Below are positions 2,492 through 60,072 of a stretch of DNA of 64,000 bases, piece by piece. The notes under the pieces are model-generated. The model worked only from the letters and a program-made list of their open reading frames with translations. It was not told the DNA's origin and did no database searches. Position numbers and translations under genes: made by a program. The first letter of the stretch is position 1. Each line of letters opens with the position of its first letter. This DNA is from Liolophura sinensis (taxonomy: Eukaryota; Mollusca; Polyplacophora; Chitonida; Chitonidae), in assembly GCF_032854445.1 (NCBI RefSeq), contig NC_088302.1:3464023-3528022 (forward strand). The letters are read 5' to 3'.

Positions 2492-2580
2492 GGGAGAGAA
2501 GCTGAGATTGAGCTACAGGCACGACATGAACAACTTCATCCAGATGACGCGTTGGAAAAGAAAAAATCGGCGTGGCTTTG
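2492..2580 (+). CDS. FOCAD: FOCAD exon (first in window)
   Basis: Acceptor TGTATTTTCAG, donor TTTG|GTAATT, 89 bases, starts in phase 0. The peptide reads GREAEIELQARHEQLHPDDA then LEKKKSAWL, with the split codon TG|G giving W. Confidence 0.75.
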
Positions 2581-5500
2581 GTAATTCCTTTTTTGTATTG
2601 CTGTCTGGTCCACTTGAAATCACTATGCCACCTTGAGATGTGGTTTCTGTCCCATTATTCGATTGGGAAAGATTCTCCAGCTTTCACTGCTCTTTGGGGA
2701 AAGATTGAATCAGTCAACAGCATTCTCATGGAGACACAGACTGACCCGAGTGACACAAATGAAAACTACTACTCGAGTTTAATAAATTTGATATCGAGGG
2801 TCACAAATTTCATATCCTATTTATCCCATAAATGTAAATTTATAGTGGAAAAAATCATTACGATTTTAACTTTCAGAAACTGCGCCGAATCTGACCGTGA
2901 AGTGATATCACATATATAGGTCAAGTGAAGCGTCACCAGTGTGTGACAAGTACATAGTGGAGTATAATACAGTACAGACAAAATTTCTTTACATAACGAC
3001 TTTTTTATACCATAGACGTCAAAGTTTGCTTCATACAAGATATCGTTCAATCTGTAATAGTTATAACAAGAAAATTACATTTTACCACAGAAAGTATTAC
3101 TGTCGAAAAATAGACAAATTTCACATGCGCTCAGTACACGCAATGCAACCTTCAAAAAACCACTGACAGTTTAACCTGATGTAGGTTGAACAAGCGAAAC
3201 AGTCTACAGAGAATTTAAGTACGGTAGATATTGGTTTCAGCCGGATAATGTCAGAATTAGTGAAGTTGTTAATACTCTCACACAGGTCAGCTGGAAAATG
3301 AAGAAACTCTATTGTTGCATGCTTGGGAAAAAGGTTACATGTAACTTACTTTTTTTAATGAAATAGTCTTTGATATAATTCATTTTAACTTAATTACAAA
3401 ATGAGTAGTGTTGTGTGTGGCCTTTTCTGATAGTGAAGAAAAATAATGGCCTACCCAATGCTTCCGTTCTAGAGATTTGACTTGGCCTTTGTGGTGACAG
3501 ATCTATGTCTTAGTCAGTGCCAAGGATTTCCACATTGATTTGATTACCTCTTGTCATATTCATAACTCTGGTGCGTCCATTTTTGTCAATTTTTGCGGTA
3601 TCTGCTGGTTGAAAGTTGGCCATGTTGACATTTGCAGACGACAAGAAATAGTTGTAAAAAAAAGGTACTGTACAGTCGAGCTGTAACTTTTGATTGGTCG
3701 ATTTGATGAATGAAAAGATACACGGACCAATCAAAATGTTGGAATTTATATTACACATGGGGCTTCTGTGACTCCATTAGTTAGTGCGTTAGTCCAGCGT
3801 AATGACCCAGGAGTCTCTCACCAATGCGGTTGCTGTGAGTTCAAGTCGAGCTCATGCTCGCTTCCTCTCTGGGCGTACGTGGGAAGGTCTTCCAGCAACC
3901 TGCAGATTGTTGTGGGTATCCCCCGGGCTCTGCTCGGTTTTCACCAACCATAATGCTGGCAGCTGTCGTATAAGTATGGTGTAAAACACCAATCAGACGA
4001 ATAAATAAATAAATATATTACACGTGGTGCATATCAAAACGATATGTCATGCCTTTATTACCCGGAAAAATAACATTCATGGGATAAATCCTCATTGGTC
4101 ACACTTAGCAACAGTCACCAGCATAACTTGCTAAAGTTTAATGGTTTACTCCAGACCCACTGACTTTTTATTATCTGCGCAAAAACAACATCAACTGACT
4201 AACAGATTGAATTGATATCGTAATAACTATTGTAATGAAATATATTCAGTCTTTGAAATTGATCAAGTCCTTTACAGCAGAAGAATATGTGTGCATTAAT
4301 CAGTTTGTCATGTATGTGGTTTTTCTGTCAGGCCTGAGCAAGTTTGTATTTATTCTGAATGTGTTTGTGTGTTTTCAGGGCAAGGGACTTGTTAGTTGAT
4401 TCCATTAGAGGAGCATCAAGGTACGCAATCAACTCTGATTGTTCTAGAAGTAATACCTGTGACAGCACTAGAGCAATTTAATTGTATAATACACATTCCT
4501 TGAGCTTGAACACAATGCTGTGTAATTGTAATTTGTCATTTGATGTGTACTTGTAAATAAAGCAATCATGAAGTCTGAAGGTACATGTTAAAGGAGAAGA
4601 AAAGTTAAAAACATGACACTGTAGGCTTGGAAAGAGCACATTTTTTCCTAACCTCCTAACACAGAAGACTTCATCACTAGTTCTTAGGCAAAATGTCGCC
4701 CACAGTGGATTTTGGCGCTGACTTTATTTATAATTTATCAGCTTGAGGTACATATTACAATTTTTTTATGGCATGCACCTGCAAGGAAATGCATATTCTT
4801 TTCAATGGTATTTGATTGATATTTAAATTTTCTTCTCCTTTAAATAAAGCAATTGTGAAGTCTGAAGGTCCATGTTAAATATACTAGAACCATGCACACA
4901 AACCTTTACCTAATAAACTCCTTTTCAAAAGATGCATACACATATGGCATGCATACACATATGGCATGCATACACATATGGCATGTATGGTTTATATTGT
5001 TTTCAAAATTTTACTCAGTTTGCTGCATCTGCCTAGGAGAACTGTGTCAGTACAAGTACAAGGGGCTGCAGGTATCAGTTTCAGATTGCCAACATTAAAT
5101 AACACAAAACAAATTTTGTTTCAGAGGCAATCCAACCTGTCAAGCCAACTGTGTATTTGCCTTAGCTGGGTTGACAGCCACAGTGAATAACTATTCTACT
5201 GGTCTGGATCCAGAAGACTTAAAAAATGTCAGCCACGAGCACATGAGCCATTCTCATTGGTTGGCTGTTGTCATGGATACCCTGATGTCCTTGATGGATG
5301 TAAAGTTTCAGCCAAGTGGTCAGCTACTGGGCATGTGTCAGCAGGTGGGAATAATGTCGTGTGCCTCCTACATTGGTATTAACTTCGCATTCAGTGCTTT
5401 TGTTTGTTTTCTGTGTCTGTTTCTAAATTCAGGATTTGCTTAGAATGCTAAGAACTTACTGCATGGCCAGAAAACTGTGTGGTTTGTCATGTACCTGGTA

Positions 5501-8500
5501 AAGGGTGGTGGTTTCCTCTGAGCATCATGGTTTCCTCTGAGCATCATGGTTTCCTCTGAGCACCATGGTTTCCTCTGAACACGCTGGTTTCCTCTGAGTA
5601 CCCTGGTTTTCTGTGAGCACTCTTGTTTCCTCTCGGCACTCTCATTTCCTCCCGGCACTCTCGTTTCCTTCCTGCACCCTCGTTTCTGCCACCCATTGTT
5701 ATTCAGAGGAGTCTAGGACATTGAAATGAACAAATATATATGGATAGTATAATCTTGTGTCTTAAGTAAAAAGTTTCAGGTAAAAACGATCGGGGAACAA
5801 AACAGCAAATGGCATGTGTTCTTAGAATATTTATGTTTACATTAATAGTGTTTAGAATGTAAACTTGGCTGAGTGTTTAGACTTTTTTTTAGAAGTTGAG
5901 TTTATGAATTCACCGCATAAAGGATGTTCCCCTTTGAAAAGTGCCACTCACGTTGAGTGCAGATAAATATTTCCTATTGTCAGAGAGGTGTCATTGACCG
6001 ACAGGAGGCCAGTGTGTTGGCAAGATCCGCTGCTAGTGTGGCAATCGCACAGGTCATCCCAGCGGTAATGACCTTTGACACAGACAGAATATACAAGATG
6101 ATAGACATGCTGAAGGCGGGGTTACCAGGCCGTGCCCCTGGCAGCCTGTCAGGAGTCTTACAGTCTTACAGTGGGCTGGGCTTGGGGATGCTTCTGGCTC
6201 GACTGTTTGAGGAACACTTCACTGATGTGGGAGGCACAAAGGTATGTCTATTTTAATAAATATGTGTTGATTGCTGTGCTGATTGGATGAGGATATTTTT
6301 TTTTGTATGCCAAAGCTTTACTTTTAAACTAATTTTATCAGAAGAGAGTGGATATGATATAGTGTAAGTTTTAAAGAATTCTACAGACTTTAGAAGATCA
6401 GATATTTCTGCAATGTAAACATAACAATCACTTACTGAGAATGTTGTCTTTCCAACGTTCTAATATTTATTAATGATCTCACCTCCCCTTCTCGCTTCTT
6501 CACTCAGGGAATGACAGAGGTGTGGAAAGCTCTGGATGTTCTGGAACAGTGCTGTCTACAGTCTACAGCTGACCACAGGTAGGATATTAGGCATTTCATG
6601 TTCTAGAACAGTGTTGTCTGCAGTCTACAGCTGACCACAGGTAAGACATTAGGCTGCATGTTCTAGAACAGTGTTGTCTGCAGTCTACAGCTGACCACAG
6701 GTAAGACATTAGGCTGCATGTTCTGGAACAGTGTTGTCTACAGGTGACCACAGGTAAGACATAAGGCTCTGGATGTACTGGAACGGTGTTGTCTGCAGTC
6801 TACACCTGTCACCTGGGTCTTCCCACTATCACCCGGGTCTTCTCGCTGTCACCGGGGTCTTCCCACTGTCACCCGGGTCTTCCCACTGTCACACAGGTCT
6901 TCCCACTATCAGCCGGGTCTTCCCACTATCACCCGGGTCTTCCCACTATCACCCCGGTCTTTCCACTATCACCCCGGTCTTCCACTATCACCGGGGTCTT
7001 CCCACTATCACCCGGGTCTTCCCACTATCACCCTGGTCCTCCCACTATCACCCTGGTCTTCCCACTATAACCCGGGTCTTCCCACTATCACCCTGGTCTT
7101 CCCACTATCACCCAGGTCTTCCCACTATCACCCCGGTCTTCCCACTATCACCCAGGTCTTCCCACTATGTGTACTGGTACACACTGGGTGGGCCATTACA
7201 TATCTTGACTGCATGTGTTTCCAGCATGCATAAAGTCAGTGTAAATATGTTAGCATCTGGACTGGCCTGCAAGGATATACCATCTTATGAAATGACAGAG
7301 ATCCTGACATAACATTACAACTATGAGCATACTTTACATGTTTGTTTGGGGCCTCCGTGTCTCAGTTTGTTGGCGCGCTGGCACAGTGTAATGACCCAGG
7401 AGTCTCTCACCAATGCGGTCGCTGTAAGTTCAAGTCCAGCTCATGCTGGCTTCCTCTCCAGAGTTGGTCGTGGGTTTATCCCCAGTCTCTGCTCGGTTTA
7501 ATTCCTCCCACCATAATGCTGGCCGCCATTGTATAAGTGAAATATTCTTGAGTACGGCGTAAAACATCAGTGAAATAAATAAACATGTTTGTTCTTAGTC
7601 AGGGTATAGTGTACTTAGGCTACAATATGCCTACATATATGTTCACATCTCACTGTACAGTGTGTGTGTGTTTGTTCCCAGACAAGGCAGCATGCTTGGT
7701 CTGGGCGTGGCCTTGGGGTCTCTATGTGCTGATGGGAGGACAGATTCCAGAGTCCATGTTCTATCACTACATGATAAACTGTCGGCCATGTTGGATTCTC
7801 TCTCAACCAATGAGGACACATTTCAGGTGGGATGATGTTCTGTTCATGTTCATCAAAGTTATACCAAGAATTTGTCATTGTTGTGTTCGCAGTCAATAAA
7901 GTTGTTCAAAAGTTGATTTAAAGATTTAAAACAAGTACTTTTCTGACAAGATCACAGCATGTACAAACTTTTGGTCATTTTTCATGAAAATTATAGACAA
8001 CATTGATTTCTTGAGTTTATGCTCTCTACTCATATCAAAGTGTGACATTTTCACAGGAACAGGTTAAATGAATTTGAATTTGAGTCAGCTAAAGCTCCAC
8101 GTTTCATCATTAGTTGAGCAGATAATATTATAGCCATATGTTTGTAGAGCTACTTGTACTTTTCTCTCTGTCCGTGTATTTGCACCGATCCACCATTTTG
8201 GGGTGGATAGTAAGAATATTGGTTGTGTGCTGATCAGATATCAAACCTCTGTTCAGACCTGCTGTGTTTCTCTGGCCACTTTGAGTTCCTCAGCATTTTC
8301 AGCCAATATCTTATCATCTGACAATGTAACAAAGGTGTTGGAGAAGTTAACATCTCTGAGTGGGAAACATTCCAAGGTAGGTCAATAAAATTTGTATTTA
8401 TATCCAGGGCATTAAGAAGTTTTTCACAAGTACTATATTCAGTTAAAACAAAATCTGCATGTAGAGTTACTCATTTTCAAAAATCATGATAGACCTTCTT

Positions 8501-11500
8501 GATATTTCCAGTTTTATTGCAGCGTCATAACATCAGCATCATTGCAATTGTGTCGGTTGTGGTGACTTCACACTCTTTGTGACACTCTTTGTGACGTCAC
8601 CTTGGGACAGCATTTCAACGTGATGAGTTCAGACCTTGGGCACACATAATTATTTGCATACATTAACCCCATTTTACATCTGTGTCTGGTCTGCATGAAG
8701 TATTTAGAGGAATCCTGATACATAGAACCATCCTGTACCCCACTGCAGCTCTGCTGTAATATGTTTAGACAAATAAATAACTAGGTTATGCTCCACTCTT
8801 CCTGTACACCCTAAATTGTTTCAACTCCTCACAGGTTAATACATCATGTTCTTGTGGTTTTCCAGAATGCTGGTTTGTGTCTCTCCGTTGGCATGCTTGG
8901 CTATAGCCTTGCTGTAAATGGTCATCCAGCAGCAGCGTCAGGCAATGAACAGCGAGCCCTGGAATGGCAGAAGCAGTTGTCTGCAGAGGTAGAAACCTGA
9001 TTGGGAATGATATTTAGAAATGAAAACAGGATACAATATGACTAATCTAACTCAATACATTTTCTGACTGTCTCTTTGAAATGACCTGCGGATGCTCAGG
9101 GGTTTCCACATACAGAGCCCGGTTTCCTCCCACCATAATGCTGGCTGCATCATATTCTTGAGTACGACATAAAACACCAATCAAATAAAATAAATAAAGA
9201 AATAAATCTTTTTGAAATGTCTGGCAGTTCTACTTTAGCTTAAAATGGAAAAAACGTCATTTTAGCTTAGCTTTCGTTTTGTCTGTACCAAGTATCGATA
9301 CATAATATTTTTACGTAATGTCCACCCGGTTGAATAATTGATTACAATAACAAGTGTAATGCAGGCACCAGCTGTTCAGACCGGTTTTCTTCTGTTTGTT
9401 GTGTGTTGTATTTTCTCCTTGGTGCATACTTTGACAGATGACAGCAGGCCTCTTTCCCTCATAATCAATGTTACTGTTCAAGATGTAATGTTTATTCTGT
9501 TGACAGGATGTGTCATCGCTGCAGAAGGTGGCAGTGTTGACAGGATTGACAGCGCTGTGTGGCTCAGAGAGGTTCTGGACACAGGTGAGGACATTCTGAA
9601 CACAGGTGATGACGTTATGGGCACATGTGTGGACATTCTGACTGACAATTATCATTCAAACATGGGACAAAAAAAAAACCTGGCGTTAACAATTCAGATG
9701 CAGTGATTTTGTTTGGCAGTTGCCGTTGCTGGCACAGTAATTAAAATACCTCTTTATCTCGCACTGTATTATGACTAAACTGACACAAGTATAAGATTGT
9801 AATTATTCCAGTTTTCTGTTCCTGAAAATGATTTTGAATCTTTCCTCTGAATTCTCTTTTGGGGGAAAACACATTTATCTGTAATAGGCTTTTCAAGTCA
9901 GAAGTTAGAGATTAGCTCTTCCTTCAGTTAGAGTGTAGACGTATGCTACTATAGCGTTGTTGATGTAGATCTAGGGTTGCGATGACCAGAGACAAATCTG
10001 CGTCATGTTGCTGATGAAAAATGCATTTACCATAAATATTGGTGCTCTGATCTAGGAATTAGTGGATAGTTATTTATTTATCTAAAGTTTGCTAAAAATG
10101 CTTTAATACACTGACAATTAACATATACATTAAACTGTCATCAGAATGGAAAACACTTATGTAAATCTAATGTTGGATTGTGGAGACATGCTGTTCAAAA
10201 AATATACATATTTTATTCCTGGAATACACAAATGGGCCCGGAATCAGTCAGTAAAAGCTTCATCCTGCTTTAATACGGTAAATGTATATATATCTGATGT
10301 ATAATAATGTTTTCAACAGTCTCTTTCTGATTTTCAGGTTTCAAGTTCTGGTGCTTCAGAGGTGAAGGACACATATTCTGCTGATGTCATCAGTATGTGT
10401 AGACAGATAGTTGAGAGTCATGGAGATCTGGGTATACAGGGAGCTGGAGCCTGGCTGTTAGGACATCTCCATTTATCAGCCTGTAATGTCACAGAAACAA
10501 GGACGAGTGGTAAATACTTACTAGGTGGTAGTGTTTTTTTCAATGATCCCAATAATGACAAACCATTTATTCTAATGTAAATTACGGGGGCCTCCGTGGC
10601 TCAGTCGGTTAGCGCGCTAGCGCAGTGCAATGACCCTGGAGTCTCTCACCAATGCGGTTGCTGTGAGTTCAAGTCCAGCTCATGCTGGCTTCCTCTCTGG
10701 CCGTACGTGGGAAGGTCTGACAGCAACCTGCGAATGGTCGTGGGTTTCTATAAGTGAAATATTCTTGAGTACGGCGTAAATCACCAATCAAATAAATAAA
10801 ATAAATAAATAACTAATGTAAATTAACTCTTGATACAGTGATGACAAGACGCACATGTACTAGCTGATGTGTGCCTCTAATCCCGGGAGAGTTACAGCTG
10901 AAGAGATTAATCAACATTAATGGTGTTTATACCTGAAATAATAATGGTTGTCAGAGCTACCAATCCCACAGGTGTTAAATTGTCAGAGTTCATAACATTA
11001 GTTCTAGTGAGCTTTATTGAGGTACTGTAGTGAAAAAAGTTAGTAAAATAGTAACTGTTAGACACTTTTCTGTCACAACAGAATATATGTACCTGTGATG
11101 TGTACCTCCAGCTTCTCTTGCCTGACAGAAGTGTGATCAGAGCATGTTATAACCTTTTAGACAGACACTTTCTTGCCATCACTGAATATATGTACCTGCC
11201 TTCTCTTACCTGCCTGACACTAGTACGACCAGAGCATGTTATAACTAAAAGCTGTTAGACAGACACTTACCTGTCATCACAGAATATATGTACCTGTGAT
11301 GTATACCTCCAGCTTCTCTTACCTGACAGAAGTGTGATCAGAGCATGTTATAACCTAACTTTTAGACAGACACTTTCCTGCCATCACAGAATATATGTAC
11401 CTGCCTGACACTAGTATGACCAGAGTATGTTATAACTGACATCTGTTAGACAGACTCTTACCAGTCATCACAGAATATATGTACCTGTGATGTGTAGGTT

Positions 11501-14500
11501 TATGTTTCAGCCCCATCCAGCTTCTCTTACCTGCCTGACACTAGTGTGATCAGAGCTGTGGTAGACTTCCTGCTTGAGGCTGGCAAACAAGGTAACTTTA
11601 TTAGTTTATGTATTATCTTATGTATTACTGCCTTCATAGTCCATAACTTTGGCCAATATTGTTTTAGTTGTCCATTCTTCTGTTCATCACTATTTTAATC
11701 AGCTGTAGCTAGTGGGGATTTCCTTTTTGCTCAGTTCTAATCATCACTATTTTAATCAGCTGTAGCTAGTGGGGATTTCCTTTGCTCAGTTCTGTTCATC
11801 ACTATTTTAATCAGCTGTAGCTAGTGGGGATTTCCTTTTTGCTCAGTTCTGATTATCACTGTTTTAATCAGCTGTAGCTAGTGGGAATTTCCTTTTTGCT
11901 CAGTTCTGTTCATCACTATTTTAATCAGCTGTAGCTAATGGGGATTTCCTTTGCTCAGTTCTGTTCATCACTATTTTAATCAGCTGTAGCTAGTGGGGAT
12001 TTCCTTTTTGCTCAGTTCTGATCATCACTGTTTTAATCAGCTGTAGCTAATGGGAATTTCCTTTTTGCTCAGTTCTGTTCATCACTATTTTAATCAGGTG
12101 TAGCTAGTGGGAATTTCCTTTTTGCTCAGTTCTGTTCATCACTATTTTAATCAGCTGTAGCTGGTGGGGATTTCCTTTGCTCAGTTCTGTTCATCACTGT
12201 TTTAATCAGCTGTAGCTAATGGGAATTTCCTTTTTGCTCAGTTCTGTTCATCACTGTTTTAATCAGCTGTAGCTAGTGGGGATTTCCTTTTTGCTCAGTT
12301 CTGTTCATCACTATTTTAATCAGCTGTAGCTAATGGGGATTTCCTTTGCTCAGTTCTGTTCATCACTATTTTAATCAGCTGTAGCTAGTGGGAATTTACT
12401 TTTTGCTCAGTTCTGTTCATCACTATTTTAATCAGCTGTAGCTAATGGGAATTTTCTTTTTGCTCAGTTCTGTTCATCACTGTTTTAATCAGCTGTAGCT
12501 AGTGGGGATTTCCTTTGCTCACTTCTGTTCATCACTATTTTAATCAGCTGTAGCTAATGGGGATTGCCTTTTTGCTCAGTTCTGTTCATCACTATTTTAA
12601 TCAGCCATAGTTAGTGGGGATTTCCTTTTTGCTCAGTTCTGTTCATCACTGTTTTAATCAGCTGTAGCTAGTGGGAATTTCCTTTTTGCTTAGTTCTGTT
12701 CATCACTATTTTAATCAGCTGTAGCTAATGGGGATTTCCTTTTTGCTCAGTTCTGTTCATCACTATTTTAATCAGCCATAGTTAGTGGAGATTTCCTTTT
12801 TGCTCAGTTCTGTTCATCACTATTTTAATCAGCTGTAGTTAGTGGAGATTTCCTTTTTGCTCAGTTGACATTGTGCTGTATTTCGGAAGATAAATAGAGT
12901 TCAAATCCATGCATGACTCACATCTGTCAAACCACTACGCATGTATAGCTTGTAGACTAATGCACTGTTTCAAAATGTTTTTATTATTTCATCCAAAATC
13001 TCCTGGAGAGCTGGATGACTTGAGATTCTAATTTATGTGATTCTGTGGTTCACCCATTCAGCAATTTCTATATTGTAACAGCCGTAACCTGGTCAGAGTG
13101 TGATGTATCCAAAACTAAGTGAAAAACCTTTCTTCTGGATAATTTTTCTTACTGACTCTTAATAATCATAGATGAGATATGAATCGTGCTGACATGTTTA
13201 TCATGCCATGGGAATAAGACAGGAATTATTAGGAATGTCTAATATCTTTTAAGGACCAGACGTCATTCCATCAAAGTTAGTGGAAATTTGCCTTTCCTCA
13301 CTGCTGGAAAATGTGAAGCAGGTGCTGCCCCCTGTCAACTGGACTGGGCTCCTCTCCCCATTGATGAGGTGGAACTTTGGTAAGCTCTGTCCCTCGCCAT
13401 AATACTGGCCGCCATTGTATAAGTGAAATATTCTTGAGTATGGCATAAAACACTAATCAATAAATGAAAAAAAAAAAAATAATATCCAGCTAATTTAATT
13501 TTATTTAATCATGGTCAGTGGTCCCATAGTGGAAAATCACTGGCCTGAGCTGTGTGATTGTAGCTGTTTACTTTCAAAGGCATAAGCCTGCTATTAGTGT
13601 ACCACTTATCAATGATCTGCCTGATACAGGGATGAGGATTTGGCCAAGTGGTTAAGATGCTTTTCTTTTATTATCACTAGGACACAGTAGCTGTGGCTTC
13701 AAACTCAACTTTCTAGATTTGGTCAATCTCATTATTTCTGGGACCTCAGTGGCAATAAGCAATAAGATCTATATGTTACAAGTGAAAATGTTCATCTATG
13801 TTTAAGAGTGGCTGCATGTACATGATTATCTCCAGGGGAATTCTTCACTGTTTTCAGGCGGCAACATTGCCTGTCATTGCCTAATACTTATTACGTGTAC
13901 ACCTCACAGGTAAATTTTTAAATGTTTTTAGGTGGCAACATTGCTTGCATGTCCATGCCTAAAACCTTCAATGCCTGAGGTAGAACCTTTCACTGTTTAT
14001 TTGTAGGATGCAACACCTATCTGTGCATAAACTTGGCTATATCTCAAAGAGAATGTTTTGCTGTTTCTTTTCAGGTGGCAATGTTGCCTGTCTATGCCTA
14101 AGACTGGCTATATCACAGAGCATTGCATCCTCTGCAGCTGCCTTGTTCGTCACCACCTGGCTGGCACAGTCTCTTTTTAACTCTTTACATGTGAGCTGAC
14201 ATTTTTCAGACAATTCCATCTAACAGATATGTGCCAATTGATTTTTGTTTCTGTAACATGTACGTGCACATAGACAAGGTATGTTCAAAGTTCTTCACCT
14301 ATGCTGATTGACCTGGGTTCTGCCATGATGTTATTGTAAAGCCTTTCTTAAGGATACAGGTTAAAATTGAATACCTCTTTCTTGAGGTATTTTTTTTAAC
14401 AACCTTAAATGTTCATGTATATGCAAATATGTAATCTTTTATTTTTTTCCCTACCTGAAATCACACCAGTCCATCAGGATTTCATCAAGAAAACACTAAC

Positions 14501-17500
14501 ATGAAATATATGTCAGATGAAAGTCCACGGAAGTAGTTGGCTCTGGTTTTTTTTTTAATTTTTTCAACCCAGGAAAATACATTTGGAACTTGGGATTTTA
14601 TGGATATCTTACCTCACCACATTGTTACCTCACATCAGGTTTTTGCCACTCAGCAAACATACACCGCTGGATTTCATCATTTTAATTGCATATACATGCA
14701 GATCCATGAATGCACTAGCCGAATGTACTCTGAAATGAACTGCTTCAAGGAAGAAATATAGATACGACTGTCCCTGACACACACTGGCTCACTGAAGACC
14801 GCCATAGAATCTGTTGTTTTAAAACTATTTTATTTCATTGGAAAAATTTAAAAAAATTAATGAAATTATTTTCATGCACAATTTTTAATGTTCTTTCACC
14901 CTATAAACACTTCATTTTAGTGTTTTCTTTGCCTTTAAATATAAGTGGTATAGTCATAGTTCAAGCATCCAGGTTACATGTAAGGAGCAGGATATTTTTT
15001 GCCAATTTGTAACGTTTAATGTACTACAGGAGACCAAAACTATATTTGAAGGCTTGTCACATATTTCTTTCAGGAGGAATTTCTTACCCAAAAATTGTAT
15101 TTTTCATGTTTTTATGGTAAACTCAAATTCAAGGCCTATCTCACCTGGGTTAAATTCAACTCCAGTTTTCTAATTACGTGAATAAAGGGTTCGCTGATGA
15201 TTTGCACAGAGAAGCTATGACATCACTGCAAAACTACAAATTATACAGTCTGTTTATTAAGCTGTGTGAACACAGAAGTGTAGTACCTGTATGTATTTAC
15301 CTGTGTGTTGTGTGTCCCCAGGAAACCTGTAAACAGGCAGTGTTTATCTCCTTACCCAAGCTCATCAAGTCCATCTCACCCTCCATCCTGAAGAAGTTCT
15401 TGGTACGCCCATGTGCTGAACAATTCACAGCAAGCCCACCCAAAGGGGAGAACTGTCAAGTGATTCTGCAGGGTCTTCTTGGGGCTCTCCAAGTACCAGA
15501 TCCTCCTGAAGCAGTTACCTCCCTTCTGTATGAAGCTACAGAACTGTTCTACAGCATCCTACCCAAAACTTTGCAGGTAATGCCTACAGATACAGCGATG
15601 CATTTAGAGATGACTCCATGCATTTTTGTACAGTGCAGCACTTTACACATTGGTATCACCTGGTCATAATTTGGTTACTTGTTTCAATTTCTGCTATGCT
15701 CTTAAATCTGGTGGACCTATGTGTACAGGATTTTAAAATCCATCTACTGCGATTTTATGGTGAAAGATTTCTTAAAATTGGAGTATTAAACTGTGAAATA
15801 GCCACAGTAAGAAATAGGTATATATACATGCAAAAAAGCCTGTATTGATTCCTGTTTCCTTCATCCTGTTTTAAAGTGTTGTTATCTTTCTCATCCTTTG
15901 ATCAGACCCATCTTGTTTTCCAGCATATAGCCATCATATCATAAAAAGGGGCCTCCATGGCCGAGGGGGTTACTACGCCACCACGGTGCTATGACCCAGG
16001 AGCTTCCCACCAGTGGCGTTTCTGTGAGTTCAAGTTCAGCTCATGCTCACTTCCTCTCCGGCCATACGTGGTAAGGTCTGCCAGAAACCTGTGGATTGTT
16101 GTGAGATTCCTTCAAGCTCTGCCTGGTTTCCTCCCACCTTAATGCTGGTCATTGTCGTATAAGTGAAATATTCTTGAATATGGTGTAAAACAGCAATCAA
16201 ATAAATAAATATAATCACATCATGAAACATGATAAATAAAAGTAAATATCCTGAAATCTGTTGATATTTTCTCTGCAGCTGGGCATGTACAGTCTGATGT
16301 GTGACTGTTTGGCTGAGTTACCAGATGAACGCTTTGACCTAATTGTTGTCGAGGACTTTACTGATCCAGCCAATCATATCAGAGGAACATATGTACGGTG
16401 CCACCTGGTGGCCAAAGGGAAACAACCTGTAGCTTTACTGAATGGCTGCATTGATGCCACCATGAATATTCCTCAGTGGTAAAGTATCTTTTTCCTCATT
16501 CAATAGCTGCCATTGGTACCAGTTTGAACTATGATAGAGAAACTTCACCTCAGGCCTTGACCTTATTGTGTCCTGTACGTGGGAAGATCTGCCAGCAACC
16601 TGAGTATGGTCGTGGATTTCTCCCAGGTTCTGCCAGGTTTCCTCCCAACATAATCCTGGGCGATGTCATATAAGTGAAACATTCTTGAGTATGGTGTAAA
16701 ACACCAATCAAATAAATAAATAAATATAGTGTTCCCTTAATCTTAGTTGGTGAGCTTGTCTTTCTTGGACTGAAGTATGTGTTGATCTTACAGGTAGTTA
16801 CAGCTACATGCAAGGCTGTAAAGCGTTAAACATTAATGAGCTCCATTAGTGATGTATGTGGTTTTACTTTTCAGTAATAGAGGGTTTGGTTTCCTCCCAC
16901 CGTAATGTTGGTTGCCATTGTGAATATTAAGTGAAATATTGTTGAGTATCGCTTAAAACACTATTCAAATAAATAAATAAATAAATCAGTCTTAGTAGAT
17001 CGGCCTTGCTGACTCAGATTGTTAAGGTGTAAATGGTGTTTTGTGTACAAATGGAGCTCTTTCCTATTTTGCCCCACAGGAGTCAGGAGGTTCAAGTAGG
17101 TAAGTGGCAAAGATCAGTTGTTTACAGCAGAGACTGGCTTTGCCGCAAACAAACCTGAGCGCCATCAAACAAGTGAAAAATCTTAAGCACTGCAATAAAC
17201 AGTAATCAATCAGTCAGTTTTAGAGTGTCTGCCTTGCAAGGTTAATGAACACTTTGCCAAGTCTCAATCTTGAGAAAGGTCCTACCTGAAACCTTGAAAT
17301 CAGCCGTTGTGTTACTTCACTGATGGACTCAAGCACTGGAAATTGACCATTTTGTTACTTCACTGATGGACCTGAACACTGGTTGACCTGTGTCAGTATA
17401 GCTTCTTTCAGAGGCATTTAGGAATTGGGATGGTATAGATTGACAGAGGCATTACTTATGGATAATCAATAAATCAACCTGTGTCAGTATATTTAGTGTA

Positions 17501-20500
17501 CACGGACAGTGTTGGCAGGTCACGTGGTGACTTCAGCATAGTGAGGCAGTGAGGAAGCACTATACATAGGTCAGCACTGGGACTGGCCTACCACAGTAAA
17601 ACTTTGTTGTTGCGTGGGCTTATAAAGAAGCAGTTACTTTCTTTGTTTGTGCAGTGACAAGTGTACCGTATTGAGCATGTTGGCTCAGTGCTTTTACCAG
17701 ACCTCTCTGACAACTGTCCAGATGACATCAGCCATACCCAGGCTCCAGTGGCTCTTAGAGCTGATGGGGCACACAAAGAATATAGCTGTGGAGGCTTTGC
17801 CCCTCAGAGTGGAGAACAGTGACCAGGCACTACCACAGGTAACTTCTGGATAGGCTGTAGCCTGCCTAATTCATCTACTACGTGTATGTACCTTCACTGT
17901 CATGATATTAAGACACCAAAATTAGCCTCTTTGTATTTTATCCCATTACTTAAAGAACTTCAAATGTATATGAATTAACTTAATATTAAAATTGCAAGTT
18001 TTGTGGCTGTTAAAATTGTGATTTCAAACAAAACAATATATGTCAGCAATTTTAATTTGTCATATTTCCAGGTATCACAAATAATGGGTGAATTTGATTT
18101 TGTGGATTTTAATTGTAAGGTAGAAAACATGTTAATCGCAACCAACCGGTCTACCAGGCCATGGACCAGTCTCTAAAGCAGCCAGTCCCTCATTCAGCAC
18201 ACCCCTAAATATCTGTTTCAGGCTGTAGAGTTTGGTCTCCAGTGTGTGGCAGCAGCAATATGCTTGTGGACATCCCCTGTGTTTGGAGGAGTGGTTGGTG
18301 TACAGTCAGGATGGTTCTCCTCTCCATCACCAGGGGTCCAATCAGATGTGGAGTGTGTGAACTATGACCCCAGTTTACCTTACTTTCCGGCACTACTTCC
18401 AGCATATATTGAGCGTTTCAACAGAGCACCTTGGGATCAGATTCTTGGAAAGGTAATAACATGTACAGTGATAGAAATCAGTAAAATAAATCTTTGTATC
18501 GTTTGTAAGTGTGAGTGCATGGCAGCAGTCCCAGTGTCAACAAATACACACACTTCCATACCCCTCTCAATGTAAGTGTCAACAACTACAATTTTTGACC
18601 ACACTTCCATACCCCTCTCAATGTAAGTGTCAACAACTATAATTTTGGACCACACTTCCATACCCCTCTTAATGTAAGTGTCATCAACTGCAATTTTTGG
18701 CTACACTTCCATACCCCTCTTAATGTAAGTGTCAACAACTACAATTTTTGACCACACTCCCATACCCCTCTCAATATAAATGTCAACAACTACAATTTTT
18801 GGCCAGTACACTTCCATACCCCTCTTAATGTAAGTGTCATCAACTGCAATTTTTGGCCACACTTCCATACCCCTCTCAATGTAAGTGTCAATAACTACAA
18901 TTTTTGGCCACACTTCCATACCCCTCTTAATGTAAGTGTCAACAACTACAATTTTTGGCTACACTTCCATACCCCTCTTAATGTAAGTGTCATCAACTAC
19001 AATTTTTGGCCACACTTCCATACCCCTCTTAATGTAAGTGTCAACAACTACAATTTTTGGCCACACTTTCATACCCCTCTTAATGTAAGTGTCATCAACT
19101 ACAATTTTTGGCCACACTTCCATATCCCTCTTAATGTAAGTGTCAACAACTACAATTTTTGGCCACACTTCCATACCCCTCTCAATGTAGGTGTCAACAA
19201 CTACAATTTTTGACCACACTTCCATACCCCTCTTAATGTAAGTGTCAACAACTGCAATTTTTGACCACACTTCCATACCCCTCTCAATGTAAGTGTCATC
19301 AACTACAATTTTTAGCCAGTACACTTCCATACCCCTCTCAGTGTAAGTGTCAACAACTACAATTTTTGACCCCTCTTCCATACCCCTCTTAATGTAAGTG
19401 TCAACAACTACAATTTTTGACCACACTTCCATACCCATCTCAATGTAAGTGTCATCAACTACAATTTTGGTCAGTACACTTTCATACCCCTCTCAATGTA
19501 AGTGTCATCAACTACAATTTTTGACCACACTTCCATACCCCTCTCAATGTAAGTGTCAACAACTACAATTTTTGACCAGTACACTTCTATACTCTTCTCA
19601 GTGCAGGTTTCAACAACTGCTATTTTTAGCCACACTTCCATACTCCCCTAAATGCAGGTTTCTACTACGGCAATTTTTTGAACACACTGCCACATTCCCC
19701 TTTTTCAACGGCTGTAATTTTTTTTTGACACTTTGGGGAACTCTGTACATTTGATTGATCGTTGATTTATACTGTATACATGTATGAATTATACACCTGT
19801 GGTCAGGTTACTGTGAAGAGAGATCCAGGGGCCAGTCTTATAAAGCTGCAGCCACAGCAGCAGCAGCATGTGCCTGACGGAACCACCATAACAATGCAGT
19901 GAAGAACCTGCAGATGGTCGTGGGTTTCTCCTGGGCTCAGCCCAGTTTTCACCCACCACAATGCTGGCCACAGTCGTATAAGTGAAATATTCTTGAGTAC
20001 ACCGTAAACCACCCATCAAATAAATAAAAGATACAATGAAGAGATATTATGTCAAAATGGTAAATGTGCTTGACGTTGGGATGTGACAGTTTTGTAAGAT
20101 GGGCCCCAGAGCACCTATCCTAGTGTGTGATTTCGATGGAATCTGGTAGAATTGGGCAATATTTCTTGGCCTTACCTCATTGGTGATTGGATGATTGGGT
20201 TATTGGTTGATTGATTGATTGGGTGATTGGATGCTTGTTTTGCCTACAATGTATTCAGTTAGCACTTTGTTTGTAGGTGTTGGACTGGCTGTGGGTATTC
20301 TCCCAGCTGCCAGATCAGAAGCTCTCCCCTGAGAGTAAACAGCACTGTGTAGGTAGGTACATACATTGTAGATGTACCTGTATACTTAACTCTGGCTGCA
20401 CAAACTATTGGCTCTTACGCAGAGCCCTCTAGCGTCAAGATTCCATCATGAGCTTTGTCATGTACCTGATCAGGTATGACTTCCTGGACAACAGGCTTTT

Positions 20501-32804: not shown

Positions 32805-34055
32805 CTCTGGCTGGAAGTCTTATCTGGCTTGAGGCTGAGTAACTGTCTGTATGCCTGCAAAACTGTGTAGACCTGGAAGTTTTATCTACCTTTAGGCTCT
32901 GTCACTGTCTGTATACCTGCAAAACTTTGTAGACCTGGAAGTTTTATCTAACTTTAGGCTCTGTTACTGTCTGTATACCTGCAAAACTTTGTAGACCTGG
33001 AAGTTTTATCTGCCTTCAGGCTGAGTCACTGTCTGTATGCCTGCAAACCTTTATAGACCTGGAAGTTTTATCTAACTTTAGGCTCTGTTACTGTCTGTAT
33101 ACCTAAAAAACTTTGTAGACCTGGAAGTTTTATCTAACTTTAGGCTCTGTTACTGTCTGTATACCTGCAAAACTTTGTAGACCTGGAAGTTTTATCTAAC
33201 TTTAGGCTCTGTTACTGTCTGTATACCTGCAAAACTTTGTAGACTTGGAAGTTTTATCTGCCTTTAGACTCTGTCACTGTCTGTATACCTGCAAAACTTT
33301 GTAGACCTGGAAGTTTTATCTAACTTTAGGCTCTATTACTGTCTGTATACCTAAAAAACTTTGTAGTCCTGGAAGTTTTATCTGCCTTCTGGCTGAGTCA
33401 CTGTCTGTATGCCTGCAAAACTTTGTAGACCTGGAAGTTTTATCTGCCTTTAGGCTCTGTCACTGTCTGTATGCGTGCAAAAATTTGTAGACCTGGAAGT
33501 TTTATCTGGCTTTAGGCTCTGTCACTGTCAGAATACCTGCAAAACTTTGTAAACCTGGAAGTTTTATCTAACTTTAGGCTCTGTTACTGTCTGTATACCT
33601 AAAAAACTTTGTAGTCCTGGAAGTTTTATCTGCCTTCTGGCTGAGTCACTGTCTGTATGCCTGCAAAACTTTGTAGACCTGGAAGTTTTATCTGCCTTTA
33701 GGCTCTGTCACTGTCTGTATGCGTGCAAAACTTTGTAGACCTGGAAGTTTTATCTGGCTTTAGGCTCTGTCACTGTCAGAATACCTGCAAAACTTTGTAA
33801 ACCTGGAAGTTTTATCTAACTTTAGGCTCTGTTACTGTCTGTATACCTAAAAAACTTTGTAGTCCTGGAAGTTTTATCTGCCTTTAGGCTTTGTCACTGT
33901 CTGTAAGCCTACAAAACTTTGTATACCTGGAAGTTTTATCTGACTTTAGACTCTGTCACTGTCTGTATACCTGCAAAACTTTGTAGACCTGGATGTTTTT
34001 ATCTAACTCTAGGCTATGTCACTGTCTGCATACCTGCAAAAATTTGTATTGGGTA
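32805..34055. repeat. 62-bp minisatellite, about 20 copies
   Basis: Unit GACCTGGAAGTTTTATCTAA + CTTTAGGCTCTGTTACTGTC + TGTATACCTGCAAAACTTTG + TA. A block of units around 33360-33560 recurs at 33610-33810, showing higher-order duplication. The segment TTTAGGCTCTG to AAAACTTTGTA resembles single-copy sequence at 35068-35110. Confidence 0.97.
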
Positions 34056-34179
34056 AGAAACGATATGTAAATTTGATCACACTAACAATTGGATTTAGCG
34101 TCTGCTGGTGTCATACAGAATTTTATTTTAGGTCAAGAACGAAATGAGATTACTAGCGATAGATTCTTTGATGATTGAC

Positions 34180-34845
34180 ATTAGGCTGTGTTACTGTCTG
34201 AAGGCCCACAGAACTAAACTAGATCCTTTACGAATAAACCCTGTACCATTGTCTGAGGACCAACAGAACTAAACTAGATCCTTTACGAATAAACCCTGTA
34301 CCATTGTCTGAGGACCAACAGAACTAAACTAGATCCTTTACGGATTAGCTCTGTACCATTGTGTCAAGGCCAACAGAACTAAACTAGACCCTTTACGGAT
34401 TAACTCTGTACCATTGTCTGAGGACCAACAGAACTTAACTAGATCCTTTACGGATTAGCTCTGTACCATTGTGTCAAGGCCAACAGAACTAAACTAGATC
34501 CTTAACGGATTAACTCTGTACCATTGTCTGAGGACCAACAGAACTAAACTAGATCCTTTACGGATTAACTCTGTACCATTGTCTGAGGACCAACAGAACT
34601 AAACTAGATCCTTTACGGATTAACTCTATACCATTGTGTCAAGGCCAACAGAACTTAACTAGATCCTTTACGAATAAACTCTGTACCATTGTCTGAGGAC
34701 CAACAGAACTTAACTAGATCCTTTACGGATTAACTCTGTACCATTGTGTCAAGGCCAACAGAACTAAACTAGATCCTTTACGGATTAACTCTGTACCATT
34801 GTGTCAAGGCCAACAGAACTAATCTAGATCCTTTACGTATTACTA
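34180..34845. repeat. 55-bp minisatellite, about 12 copies
   Basis: Unit AACTAAACTAGATCCTTTAC + GGATTAACTCTGTACCATTG + TCTGAGGACCAACAG, with alternating TCTGAGGAC and TGTCAAGGC variants. The first unit (TTAGGCTGTGTTACTGTCTG, AAGGCCCACAG) is intermediate to the 62-bp array and to 35068-35110, so the two arrays share an ancestor. Confidence 0.95.
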
Positions 34846-35029: not shown

Positions 35030-35110
35030 GGAATGATATGTGACTTACTGGATTCTTTGACGATTGGTTTCAGGCTCTGCCATTGCCTGAAGGCCTGTAG
35101 AACTTTGTAC
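35030..35110. other. Single-copy relative of the 62- and 55-bp arrays, splice-like on both strands
   Basis: GATTGGTTTCAG|GCTCTGCCATTG reads as an acceptor on the plus strand. On the minus strand AAGTTCTACAG|GCCTTCAGGC and CCTTCAG|GCAATGG read as acceptors, and AATCCA|GTAAGTCA as a donor about 45 bases on. It may be an exon of the minus-strand gene at 36.8 kb, but the frame does not join cleanly, so I do not call a CDS. Confidence 0.35.
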
Positions 35111-35458
35111 ACCGTCAAAAAGAACGTGGTGAAGCACATGCGAAGATCACTGTTGTCCAAATCTAACCATTCGTTGCTAAAAAAAAAGGCGACAGAGAAA
35201 CTTCACAACACCGTACTGCGTGTTCATCTAAGTGATAATTAATATTACCAGTATCCCTGTTCTGTTTTGAAGGATTCCTATTAATTTAGGCTTCAAAACA
35301 GACATCCCTGTACCAGCCCTCATTCAATATGAACGCAGGACCAATACCCAAAACGATTTTTAGCATAAACCACCAAAGGACTAAAGTATATACAGCACAA
35401 ATTTAGGATGGGATCTTAGAAAGAGAAGCAATTAACAGTTTCGAATTATGTTGTAACT

Positions 35459-36786: not shown

Positions 36787-36954
36787 TTAGCGGCGTTGAT
36801 CAGGTACACGGACAGAGCGGAGGCGTACTTCACACAGTTACCCCCGAATCACCTCCACTTCCTGCTCCAGGAATTTAGAATCCCGCTCTCTGTTCCCAAC
36901 CTGCTGGAGTTTGGTGTAAAGTCGTGCGAGCTGCATGTTCAGGTCACGTAATAT
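36787..36954 (-). CDS. Coiled-coil exon of an unidentified minus-strand gene, with a frame break
   Basis: Minus-strand acceptor GCGTGTTGCAG|ATATTACGTG at 36954. The frame reads ILRDLNMQLARLYTKLQQVG then NRERDSKFLEQEVEVIR, a heptad-rich coil, to a run of five G at 36841-36845. Next comes an in-frame TAA, or a weak donor (GG|GTAACT) that would end the exon at 36842. Past the G run another frame stays open for about 20 residues (CVKYASALSVYLINAAN) to a consensus donor AACAG|GTAAGT at 36787. Either the exon stops at 36842, or a one-base change in the G run breaks a longer exon. No other exon was found with confidence. The adjoining array (36955-38880) is built from this acceptor. Confidence 0.45.
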
Positions 36955-37960
36955 CTGCAACACGCAACAACGAATAACCTGATTTGAGTTCGTCACGTAA
37001 TATCTGAAACACACAGCAATAGCTGATTTAAGTGTGTTACGCTCTGGCCGTACGTAGGAAGGTCTGTCAGCAACCTACGAATTGTCGTGGGTATCCCCTG
37101 TGCTCTGCCCGGTTTCCTCCCACCATAATGCTGGCCGCCCGTCGTGTAAGTGAAATATTCTTGACGGTGTAAAACACCAATTAAGTAAAATAAAATAAAT
37201 AAGTTTGTTACGTAATATCTGAAACATGTAATAGAGATAACCTGGTTTAAGTTTGTCACGCAATATCTGAAACATGTAACAGAGATAACCTGATTCAAGT
37301 CTGTCACGTAATATCTGAAACATATAATAGAGATAAACTGGTTTAAGTTCGCCACGTAATATTTGAAACACGTAACAACGATAACCTGGTTTTAAGTTCA
37401 CCACGTAATACCTAAACCACGCAACAACGATAACCTGATTTAAGTTATTCACGTAATTTCTAAAACATGTAATAGAAATAACTTGGTTTAAGTTTGTCAC
37501 ACAATATCTGAAACATGTAATAGAAATAACTTGGTTTAAGTTTTGTCACACAATATCTGAAACATGGTAATAGAAATAACTTGGTTTAAGTTTGTCACAC
37601 AATATCTGAAACATGTAATAGAAATAACTTGGTTTAAGTTTGTCACGCAATATCTGAAACGTGTAATAGAAAAAACTTGGTTTAAGGTTGTCACGTAATA
37701 TCTAAAACATGCAACGGAGATAATCTTTTTTACCTTTGTCACTTAATATCTGAAACACGTATTAGCGATTAGCTGATTGCCACGTAACATCTTAATAACT
37801 CAGCAGTGATAACCTGATTTAAGTTTGTCGCGTAATATCTGAAACACGTAATAGAGAAAACCTGGTTTAAGTTTGTCACGTAATATCTGAAACACACAGC
37901 AATAACAAGCTGATTAAAATGGAAGTTAATATAACATATCCTAGTGGTAGCTATATTAAA
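36955..37960 (-). repeat. 47-bp array made of 3' splice-site copies, about 16 units
   Basis: Read on the minus strand, the true junction is CGTGTTGCAG|ATATTACGTGAC. The units repeat (C/A)(A/G)TGTTTCAG|ATATTRCGTGAC, preceded by CAGGTTATCTCTATTA and followed by AAACTTAAAC. A 5'-truncated SINE sits inside (37041-37202). A minus-strand frame (NLNQVISITCFRYYV) is open in places only because units are close to 48 bases. Confidence 0.93.
37041..37202 (+). mobile_element. SINE inserted in the splice-site array
   Basis: GCTCTGGCCGTACGTAGGAA through CATAATGCTGGCCGCC to an AAAATAAAATAAATAAG tail. AAGTGTGTTAC before it and AAGTTTGTTAC after it look like an 11-base target duplication with one mismatch, although both are also array sequence. 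Confidence 0.9.
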
Positions 37961-38019
37961 ACTTATCACCTAATACCAGTAACACAGACAAATATACCCT
38001 GGAACCAGACTGTACGTAA

Positions 38020-38880
38020 CGCGTGAAAGTCACAACAGCGATAACCTGATTAAAGCTTGACACGTGATACTGAAACTATCACCAGCGATCACCTGATTAA
38101 AGCTTAACTCGTGATACCTGAAACAATCACCAGCGATCACCTGATTAAAACTTAACTCGTGATACCTGAAACAATCACCAGCGATCACCTGATTAAAGCT
38201 TAACTCGTGATACCTGAAACTATCACCAGCGATAACCTGATTAAAGCTTGACACGTAAAACCTGAAACAATCACCAGCGATAACCTGATTAAAGCTTAAC
38301 TCGTGATACCTGACATACACAATCTACGATACTTTAATCAGCGATAACCTGATTAAAGACTGACACGTGATACCTGAAACTATCACCAGTGATAACCAGA
38401 TTAAAGCTTGACACGTAATACCTAAAACAATCACCAGCGATAACCAGATTAAAGCTTAACTCGTGATACCTGAAACTATCACCAGCGATCACCTGATTAA
38501 AGCTTGACACGTAATACCTGAAACAATCACCACCGATAACCTGATTAAAGCTTAACTCGTGATACCTGAAACAATCACTAGCGATAACCTGATTAAAGAC
38601 AGACACGTGATACCTGAAACAATCACCAGTGATAACCAGATTAAAGCTTAACTCGTGATTTCTGAAACTATCACCAGCGATAACCTGATTAAAGCTTAAC
38701 TCGTGATACCTGAAACTATCACCAGCGATAACCTGATTAAAGCTTGACACGTAATACCTGAAACAATCACCAGTGATAATTTTATGAAAGCTTGACATGT
38801 GATACCTGAAACAATCACCAGTGATAACCAGATTAAAGCTTGACACGCGATACCTAAAACGCGCAGTAATGATAACCAGA
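38020..38880 (-). repeat. 48-bp array, about 18 units, related to the 47-bp array
   Basis: Minus-strand unit CAGGTTATCGCTGGTGATTG + TTTCAGGTATCACGAGTTAA + GCTTTAAT. It aligns with the neighbouring 47-bp family at CAGGTTATC, TGTTTCAG and the CACG that follows. At 16 codons per unit a minus frame (SFNQVIAGDCFRYHEL) stays open for up to 170 codons. Confidence 0.95.
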
Positions 38881-45165: not shown

Positions 45166-45171
45166 TCCATG

Positions 45172-45321: not shown

Positions 45322-45365
45322 CATTACAAATGCGCAATTAACATTTGGAAGAGGTATTTTCTAAT

Positions 45366-47103: not shown

Positions 47104-47109
47104 AATAAA
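47104..47109 (+). terminator. Probable polyadenylation signal of the kinase gene
   Basis: AATAAA 114 bases after the kinase stop codon, followed by T-rich and GT-containing sequence (CTTGTTTTCATC, GTGTTTCTTGTTATG). Confidence 0.6.
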
Positions 47110-50920: not shown

Positions 50921-50924
50921 CCAT

Positions 50925-53240
50925 TGGACCAGTCCTCTCTGTATTAGATCAGTCCTCTCTGTATTGGATCTGTCCTCTCTGTATTGGATGCAGTCGTCTC
51001 TGTATTGGATTTGTCCTCTCAGTATTGCATTTGTCCTCTCAGTATTGGATCAGTTCTCTCTGTACTGGATCAGTTCTTTCTGTATTGGATTTGTCCTCTC
51101 TGTATTGGATCAGTCCTCTCTGTATTTGATCTGTCCTCTCTGTATTGGATCAGTCCTCTCTGTATTTGATCTGTCCTCTCTGTATTGGATGCAGTCGTCT
51201 CTGTATTTGATCAGTTCTCTCTGTATTGGATCAGTTCCCTCTGTATTGGATCAGTAATCTCTGTATTGGATGCAGTCGTCTCTGTATTGGATTTGCCCTC
51301 TCTATATTGGATTTGTCCTCTCAGTATTGGGTCAGTTCTCTCTGTATTGGATCAGTTCTCTCTTCATTGGATTTGTCCTCTCAGTATTGGATCAGTTCTT
51401 TCTGTATTGGATCAGTTCTTTCTGTATTGGATTTGTCATCTCTGTATTGGATCAGTCTTCTCTATATTAGATCAGTCCTCTGCGTATTGGATGCAGCCTT
51501 GTCTGTATTGGATCTGTCCTCTCTGTACTGGATCTGTCCTCTCTGTTTTGGGTGCAGTCCTCTCTGTATTGGGTGCAGTCCTCTATGTATTGGATTTGTC
51601 CTCTCAGTATTGGGTCAGTTCTCTCTGTATTGGATCAGTTCTCTCTGCATTGGATTTGTCCTCTCAGTATTGGATCAGTTCTTTCTGTATTGGATCAGTT
51701 CTTTCTGTATTGGATTTGTCATCTCTGTATTGGATCAGTCTTCTCTGTATTAGATCAGTCCTCTGCGTATTGGATGCAGCCTTGTCTGTATTGGATCTGT
51801 CCTCTCTGTACTGGATCTGTCCTCTCTGTTTTGGGTGCAGTCCTCTCTGTATTGGGTGCAGTCCTCTATGTATTGGATTTGTCCTCTCTGTATTGGATGA
51901 GTTCTCTCTGTATTGGATTTGTCCTGTCTATTGGATCAGTCCCCTATGTATTGGATGCAATCCTCTCTGTATTAGATCAGTCCTCTCTGTATTGGATCAG
52001 TCCTCTCTGTATTGGACGCAGTCCTCTCTGTACTAAATCAGTCCTCTCTGTATTGGGTGCAGTCCTCTCTGTATTGGATCAGTCCTCTCTGTATTGGATG
52101 CAGTCCTGTCTGTACTAGATCAGTCCTCTCTGTATTGGGTGCAGTCCTCTCTGTATTTGGATCAGTCCTCTCTGTATTGGATGCAGTCCTCTCTGTACTA
52201 GATCAGTCCTCTCTGTATTGGGTGCAGTCCTCTCTGTATTGGACCAGTCCTCTCTGTATTGGATCAGTCCCCTCTGTATTGGATGCATTCCTCTCTGTAT
52301 TAGATCAGTACTCTTTGTATTGGATGCAATCCTCTCTGTATTAGATCAGTTCTCTCTGTATTGGATCAGTTCTCTCTGTATTGGATCAGTTCTCTCTGTA
52401 TTGGATTTGTCCTGTCTGTTGGATCAGTCCCCTCTGTAATGGATCAGTCCTCTCTGTATTGGATCAGTCCTCTCTGTATTCGATCAGTTCTCTCTGTATT
52501 GGGTGCAGTACTCTCTGTATTGGATCAGTCCTCTCTTTATTGAATGCAGTCCTCTCTGTATTGGATCGGTCCTCTATGTATTCGATCAGTTCTCTCTGTA
52601 TTGGATTTGTCCTGCCTATTGGATCAGTCCCCTCTGTAATGGATCAGTTCTCTCTGTATGGGATCAGTCCTCTCTGTATTCGATCAGTTCTCTCTGTATT
52701 GGATTTGTCCTATCTATATTGGATCAGTGATCTCTGTATTGGATCTGTCCTCTCTGTGTTGGATCAGTGATCTCTGTATTGGACCAGTCCTCTCTGTATT
52801 GGATCTGTCCTCTCTGTATTGGATCAGTCCTCTCTGTATTGGATTTGTCCTCTCTGTATTGGATGCAGTCGTCTCTGTATTTGATCAGTTCTCTCTGTAT
52901 TGGATCAGTTCCCTCTGTATTGGATCAGTAATCTCTGTATTGGATGCAGTCGTCTCTGTATTGGATGCAGTCCTCTCTGTATTTGATCAGTCTTCTCTGC
53001 ATTGGATGCAGCCCTCCCTGTATTGGATCAGCCCCCTACGCATTGGATGCAGTCCTTTCCGTATTAGATCTGTCCTTTCCGTATTGGATCAGTCCCCCCT
53101 TTATTAGATCTGTCCTTTCCGTATTGGATCAGTCCCCTCTGTATTAGATATATACCATCTGTACTGGATCAGTCCCCTCTGTATTAGATATATACCATCT
53201 GTACTGGATCAGCCTTTCTTGTATTGGACCTACCTGTACT
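50925..53240. repeat. 20-bp minisatellite of 2.3 kb with higher-order repeats
   Basis: About 115 copies of TCCTCTCTGTATTGGATCAG with variants (GGATGCAG, GGATTTG, GGATCTG). As 20 is not a multiple of three, each forward frame reads the same 20-residue cycle (ISPLCIGSVLSVLDQSSLYW) and stays open for up to 283 codons. These frames are array by-products. A 283-bp block at 51311-51593 is repeated almost exactly at 51594-51876, and a block at about 51188-51290 recurs near 52861-52970. Confidence 0.98.
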
Positions 53241-59425: not shown

Positions 59426-59428
59426 TCG

Positions 59429-59927
59429 TCTATCACCCATCAGTATCTCAGTCCACATTTTATCACATATCTTTATCTCACATGATATATCATCCATGAG
59501 TTCCTCAGTCATATTTCATCAGCTATACTTATCTCTCATCATACAAGTATATCATCCATCAATATCTCAGTCCACATTTCATGGGCTATACCCATCAGCT
59601 ACACTCATCTCACATCATACACGTATGTCATCCATCAGTATCTCAGTCCACATTTCATTCGCTATCTTCATCTCATGTCATACAAGTATGTCATCCATCA
59701 GTATCTCAGTCCACACTCCATCAGCTATCTATGTCACATGATATATCATCCACCAGTTCCTTAGTCCACACTCCATCAGATATCTTTATCTCACATGATA
59801 TATCACCTATCAGTATTTTGGTCCACATTCCATGAGCTATCTTTATGTCACTTCATATATCATCCATCAGTATCTCAGTCCACATTCCATTGGCTATCCT
59901 CATTTGAGATCATATATCAGCAGCTAT
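59429..59927. repeat. 57-bp array spanning the JTB stop codon, about 9 copies
   Basis: Plus-strand unit TATCTCAGTCCACATTCCAT + GAGCTATCTTTATGTCACTT + CATATATCATCCATCAG. Its last unit includes the final JTB codons and stop (minus strand GATATATGA). The array then extends through what should be the JTB 3' UTR. Units become more diverged away from the gene. Confidence 0.9.
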
Positions 59928-60072
59928 CTGCCTGTCAATCTTCTCTCGCAGCATTCTGTCTAGCCTGTGTTGTCTAATGACCACCAGCCCGTAGGACAGG
60001 ATGCCAATGGCAAATGTCACTCCTTCAAATATCCAGAAGTTCCTTTCCTCTAACCATTGCGTCCCTGAGCAC
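59910..60072 (-). CDS. JTB: JTB exon 5 (membrane span, tail, stop)
   Basis: Minus-strand acceptor TATGTTCTGTAG, 163 bases to TGA. The first base completes the ATG codon split with exon 4. Ends DRQIAADI. Confidence 0.92.

Follow-up and report, generated by a model that had tools for sequence, protein, structure and literature searches.

Our results show that minisatellite arrays run across exon edges in many unrelated genes of the chiton Liolophura sinensis. In a genome sample of four protein families, 13 of the 372 exon edges (3.5%) lay inside an array that continued into the intron, and both edge types were affected, with 8 of the 186 donors and 5 of the 186 acceptors crossed. An earlier note, made on the window (the whole 64-kb stretch of DNA that was analysed), had suspected a genome-wide habit, and the sample bears this out. 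The chiton arrays are probably mirage minisatellites, that is, ordinary tandem duplications that extended across an exon edge and were tolerated there.

The genome was sampled through the Pfam families Myosin_head, Kinesin, Pkinase and Cpn60_TCP1, for which the matches listed (best candidates only) numbered at least 81, 132, 135 and 44, respectively. From the 392 listed matches we used 204, excluding those with internal stops and most of the long or apparently intronless frames, and took each with 620–650 bases of flank, which gave 167 loci. A matrix derived from the focadhesin exons served to place the splice sites, and 36 of the 408 edges were dropped for weak scores. By position, the 13 crossed edges belong to 12 gene loci, two of the edges being 2.5 kb apart on C12. 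All 13 were inspected by eye, four of them whole (L002, L030, L034 and L076) and the other nine in part. For instance, a kinesin donor (L002) lies in an array of 11.3 copies of a 63-bp unit, a myosin acceptor (L034) in 20.6 copies of a 32-bp unit, and at a CCT donor (L104) 97 exon bases are inside a 109-bp unit. Arrays detected by TRF made up 10.0% of the 269,728 sampled bases. In contrast, the table of the assembly paper gives 0.08% for its class of simple repeats, microsatellites and RNA (PMC11068029); most of the TRF arrays may sit in the 14% listed as unclassified in the same paper.

The main gene of the window, focadhesin, lies on the plus strand. The 17 modelled exons span 2492..18452, with more exons outside this range, and are placed at 2492-2580, 4379-4420, 5125-5344, 5984-6241, 6508-6578, 7682-7826, 8257-8376, 8866-8988, 9507-9584, 10338-10509, 11511-11591, 13254-13379, 14075-14190, 15322-15576, 16279-16478, 17655-17838 and 18222-18452. 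Every border of this model has the expected AG or GT, the joined exons translate into 837 amino acids without a stop, and the product matches the Pfam family Focadhesin with E=9.9e-105. An edge of focadhesin was regarded as copied when its best 40-mer copy agreed at 25/40 positions or more, a level reached in 0.4% of 3,000 unrelated 1-kb trials.

At the exon 5 donor, TRF found 4.7 copies of a 60-bp unit at 6532..6808 (plus strand). Exon 5 ends at 6578, and the first 60-bp copy contains its 47 terminal bases. The best copy of this edge matched at 32/40, and three decoys read CAGGTAAGA, against CAGGTAGGA at the real donor. At the exon 9 donor (exon end 9584), 3.2 copies of a 21-bp unit lie over the donor at 9573..9640 (plus strand, TRF), with a best copy of 28/40; here the real site outscores both decoys. 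Copies of the exon 13 acceptor, located at 13840..14074 (plus strand) upstream of the exon, are degenerate and have no TRF row. The best of them matched at 27/40; two reached at least 17/26, and a third was recognised by eye. The earlier note had picked out these three arrays, and judged by the 25/40 threshold all three are real. The array that it had related to the body of exon 11 is real as well. TRF places this array 5' of the exon, at 11060..11493 on the plus strand, where it holds partial copies of the exon body; its unit aligned to 11528-11559 within the exon with a score of 44, compared to a maximum of 26 in 40 shuffles. The exon 11 acceptor proper matched at 24/40, narrowly below the threshold.

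On the minus strand, TRF and alignment of the unit delimit an array at 36955..38860 that adjoins the acceptor (36954/36955) of a candidate exon at 36.95 kb. It includes 48-bp TRF arrays at 37200-37894, 38036-38313 and 38339-38860, with 14.6, 5.8 and 10.9 copies, respectively. The 48-bp unit aligned to 36943-37011 with a score of 87 (shuffled maximum 26), and edge matching found 22 copies, 20 of which kept the AG. The array was thus rightly related to this acceptor in the earlier note, but the ~34 copies reported there come down to ~31. The candidate exon had also been taken for part of a second gene with splice-site copies, on the opposite strand to the first. Focadhesin stands as a gene, but the 36.95-kb exon is not confirmed as one by Pfam, where nothing exceeded the cut-off (the best match, Laminin_II with E=0.012, reached 16 bits, with the cut-off at 33); no frame was found to be open throughout this stretch. 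A further candidate exon on the minus strand, at 35049..35176, has AG before it and GTAAGT after it, and a Pfam search gave no match. Two neighbouring arrays at 32.8–34.8 kb, both absent from the earlier note, match this exon. The 62-bp array at 32811..34048 (minus strand, 20 copies) resembles the exon body with a score of 40 (shuffled maximum 27). The resemblance of the 55-bp array at 34195..34842 (minus strand, 11.8 copies) is marginal, with a score of 28 against a shuffled maximum of 26; the stretch 34130-34240 at the edge of this array aligned to the exon with a score of 43.

A non-splice form was described for JTB, which lies on the minus strand and whose last coding exon, at 59910..60072, is identified by its reading frame and by a Pfam match to JTB (E=2.8e-12). 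The array past the coding end, at 59429..59919 on the same strand, consists of TRF rows at 59517-59919 and related copies at 59431-59510. It is real, and with its end at 59919 it covers the stop codon (59910-59912) as claimed, but the overlap with the exon is slight, at ~7 bases before the stop.

In the 64-kb window as a whole, TRF gave 41 array rows that cover 19.4% of the sequence, and the longest array measured 2,306 bases. We aligned 17 array units to the 1.5 kb on each side, using shuffled units as a control. Within this distance, the arrays at 1, 5509, 6809, 11678, 27355, 36121 and 50923 had no match over the shuffled maximum. Two large minisatellites, at 50923-53228 (20 bp, 114 copies) and at 1-1066 (37 bp, 29 copies), are among those with no outside match within 1.5 kb. 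At 28400-28794, a 199-bp unit is present in two copies, and their 100% identity indicates that this is probably a very recent tandem duplication. The window also contains a single open frame of 430 amino acids with a protein kinase domain (45698-46990, plus strand; Pfam Pkinase, E=3e-26), which is apparently intronless. Copies of an interspersed element were seen by eye at about 3760, 7350, 10590, 15950 and 62458. The element starts with GGCCTCCGTGGCTCAG and ends with AAATAAATAAA, and from its sequence it looks like a tRNA-headed SINE.

Tolerated tandem duplication could produce the edge arrays as follows. Duplications of ~20–110 bp would arise, presumably via slippage or unequal exchange, in a genome that is rich in arrays. 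Where the duplicated unit spans an exon edge, the exon-proximal copy would still code and splice, and the remaining copies would be intronic. With the extra copies placed in the intron the mRNA need not change, so that the array would be tolerated and may grow to 20 copies or more. The spliceosome would choose the exon-proximal site, i.e., the first donor after the exon or the last acceptor before it. Exon definition is an established concept, and it predicts use of the exon-proximal copy, whether the site is a donor or an acceptor.

The position of the edge within the repeat unit did not appear to be fixed. The exonic share of the unit varied from 0.08 to 0.89, which in this small sample was not detectably different from uniform (KS p=0.31, n=13); at the locus with the lowest share (L116), inspection by eye showed that the unit includes more exon than TRF reported. 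The earlier note had proposed that slippage begins at the exon borders. Seeding at the border would fix the position of the edge within the unit, and in view of the varied phase this proposal is without support. In unit length, the edge arrays were not detectably different from 66 arrays at other loci (p=0.34), and the same was true of identity (p=0.69). They did contain more copies (8.1 vs 3.2, p=0.002), although the limits of the fetched sequences may clip the other arrays, which may explain part of this difference.

An alternative explanation, in keeping with the earlier note, might be that exon edges are true hotspots, at which the splice-site sequence, a co-transcriptional structure or a step in base composition triggers duplication. 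This would be in line with the density of array ends near exons. Exon-facing array ends were tallied according to their distance to the edge and pooled per free base. Within the exon, 12 of them lay at 4–50 bases, a bin that leaves out L104 with its 97 bases, and 36 lay 96–446 bases into the intron. The rate per 10 kb of free sequence was 7.1 in the edge bin versus 3.1 in the far intron, a ratio of 2.29 with a gene-clustered 95% interval of 1.16–3.96 (one-sided binomial p=0.015). Random placement would yield ~5.2 crossings in the edge bin, so that pure randomness is a poor fit to the 12 observed. With plain pooled weighting, the expected number was 4.7 and the ratio 2.55 (interval 1.27–4.52). 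When rates were averaged per flank over free positions, 12.5 crossings would be expected and the ratio became 0.96 (interval 0.46–1.86); this scheme was replaced by pooling because such an average is dominated by flanks that offer few free positions. These weighting choices, per-flank or pooled, were made after the data had been seen.

The edge excess of array ends is modest, a grade that we chose because the distance bins, too, were defined with the first cases already in view. Array ends were also enriched in the first 100 intronic bases, at 1.65 times the far-intron rate (p=0.04 by a cruder count). This enrichment might be counted in favour of a hotspot, but it means that the excess extends to nearby intron without a splice site, and the edge excess may in part reflect array ends piling up near exons. 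Moreover, a trigger residing in the edge itself is at odds with its lack of a fixed phase in the unit and with the involvement of donors as well as acceptors. Taken with the late choice of bins, these observations make a true hotspot unlikely. Next to tolerated duplication, the approximately twofold excess suggests an additional tendency of exons to retain or attract array ends, possibly because arrays could drift as far as an exon yet not across it.

A different measure was provided by copy coverage, in which 30- or 40-mers centred on the edge were compared with the next intron. In focadhesin, 2 of the 17 donors and 1 of the 17 acceptors had an intronic copy, compared to 19–22% of ~2,300 intronic positions. 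Likewise, with 40-mers in the first genome sample, copies were found for 3/102 donors and 2/99 acceptors, compared to 9–10% of control positions; with 30-mers, the numbers were 5/102 and 2/99. The earlier note had named such a comparison of edge copies with random intronic oligomers as one that could refute it, and the outcome went against it. We rejected the apparent depletion at edges as biased, because arrays can reach intronic positions from afar, whereas they reach an edge only from the last exon bases. Array-end density was judged to be the fairer measure.

The edge arrays are rich in potential splice sites. We surveyed 17 loci (the 13 sampled edges, three in focadhesin and the one at 36.95 kb), where a copy was defined by at least 17/26 matches to the edge. 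AG or GT was retained in 145 of the 155 copies, a proportion that is favoured by the choice of copies on likeness. The prediction of decoy splice sites in the earlier note was therefore correct. Compared by locus, decoys were on a par with real sites in score (Wilcoxon p=0.18). The best decoy equalled or surpassed the real site in 13 of the 17 loci, and no decoy did so in L002, L123 and focadhesin exons 9 and 13. In 15 cases (the 13 sampled edges and focadhesin exons 5 and 9) we followed the frame for a switch to the next decoy. Such a switch would introduce a frameshift or a stop in 12 of them and would leave the frame open in the other three (L166, L087 and L167). In-frame use of the decoys was considered and rejected, as a length divisible by three was found in 5 of the 13 units, about the number expected by chance. 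With decoys as strong as the real sites and a damaged frame in most cases, position must help to decide where splicing takes place.

The intact state of the decoys, which score like real sites, might instead point to selection that keeps the arrays, with the extra sites serving in back-up, regulated or recursive splicing. We consider this improbable. Choosing copies by likeness favours intact ones, recent amplification likewise keeps copies alike, and use of the next decoy would mostly harm the frame. It is very improbable that the arrays are assembly artefacts: the assembly paper states a read coverage of just 14x, but also a mean HiFi read of 8,347 bases (PMC11068029), which exceeds the longest array in the window, and the copies diverge, with 74–97% matches in the main TRF rows of nine edge arrays.

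The earlier note knew of no standard name for these repeats, but one exists. In the lancelet globin paper, intron-exon boundaries duplicated in the manner of a minisatellite are called mirages, which the paper cites from Adh3 (PMC3087553), and mirages were further found in the PGBD5 and troponin C genes of lancelets (PMC3902484). In the sections of these papers used here, the lancelet mirages (Adh3, BflGb6, BflGb9, troponin C and PGBD5) consist of tandem copies across an exon-intron boundary, at the 5' or the 3' side, with AG/GT in many copies (PMC3087553, PMC3902484). The chiton arrays agree in all these respects. Their units span the boundary (13 of the 372 sampled edges, and focadhesin exons 5, 9 and 13), either boundary can be involved (8 donors, 5 acceptors), and AG/GT persists in many copies, though not in all (145 of 155 likeness-selected copies at 17 loci). 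They differ from the lancelet mirages in their mollusc host, their presence in many unrelated genes and the availability of a sampled rate. Conversely, allelic and somatic length variation and undisturbed splicing, the latter suggested by RT-PCR (PMC3087553), are features described from lancelets, whereas the chiton arrays are known from the sequence of one assembly.

The chiton arrays also resemble the Rogers model of intron gain, in which splice signals are copied when an AGGT segment undergoes tandem genomic duplication (PMC3443670). However, that model, as outlined in the portion of the paper drawn upon, turns a duplicated exon segment into a new intron, whereas the chiton arrays lie in introns that seemingly existed already. 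Exon 4 duplications in an earthworm metallothionein gene are a further related case; in the account at hand, its repeats are not described as exon-edge copies. In the literature searched, which included mollusc work and was covered partly by excerpts, we recognised no report of mirages outside lancelets. The type of phenomenon is already known from lancelets, and new here are the mollusc host, which represents a new phylum, the sampled rate and the strengths of the decoys.

Our findings imply that many good-looking false splice sites adjoin the real one, and that the cell must disregard them. If ~3.5% of the exon edges carry intact decoys, site strength alone would hardly set exon borders in this chiton, and position with respect to the exon would have to count. 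More tentatively, exon edges might be preferred anchors of minisatellites in chitons, at about one edge in thirty, with strict exon definition ignoring up to ~20 near-identical sites; the arrays would then amount to a natural experiment, across the whole genome, on how splice sites are chosen, and could be a standing source of shifted borders and new introns. We regard this wider reading as possible rather than likely. Public RNA-seq data exist for Liolophura, with five transcriptomes (SAMN35319765-69) given in the assembly paper (PMC11068029), and bear directly on the question which copy is spliced. Exon-edge repeats, known from lancelets, are now placed in a mollusc, and the habit may therefore track the minisatellite load of a genome and not its lineage.
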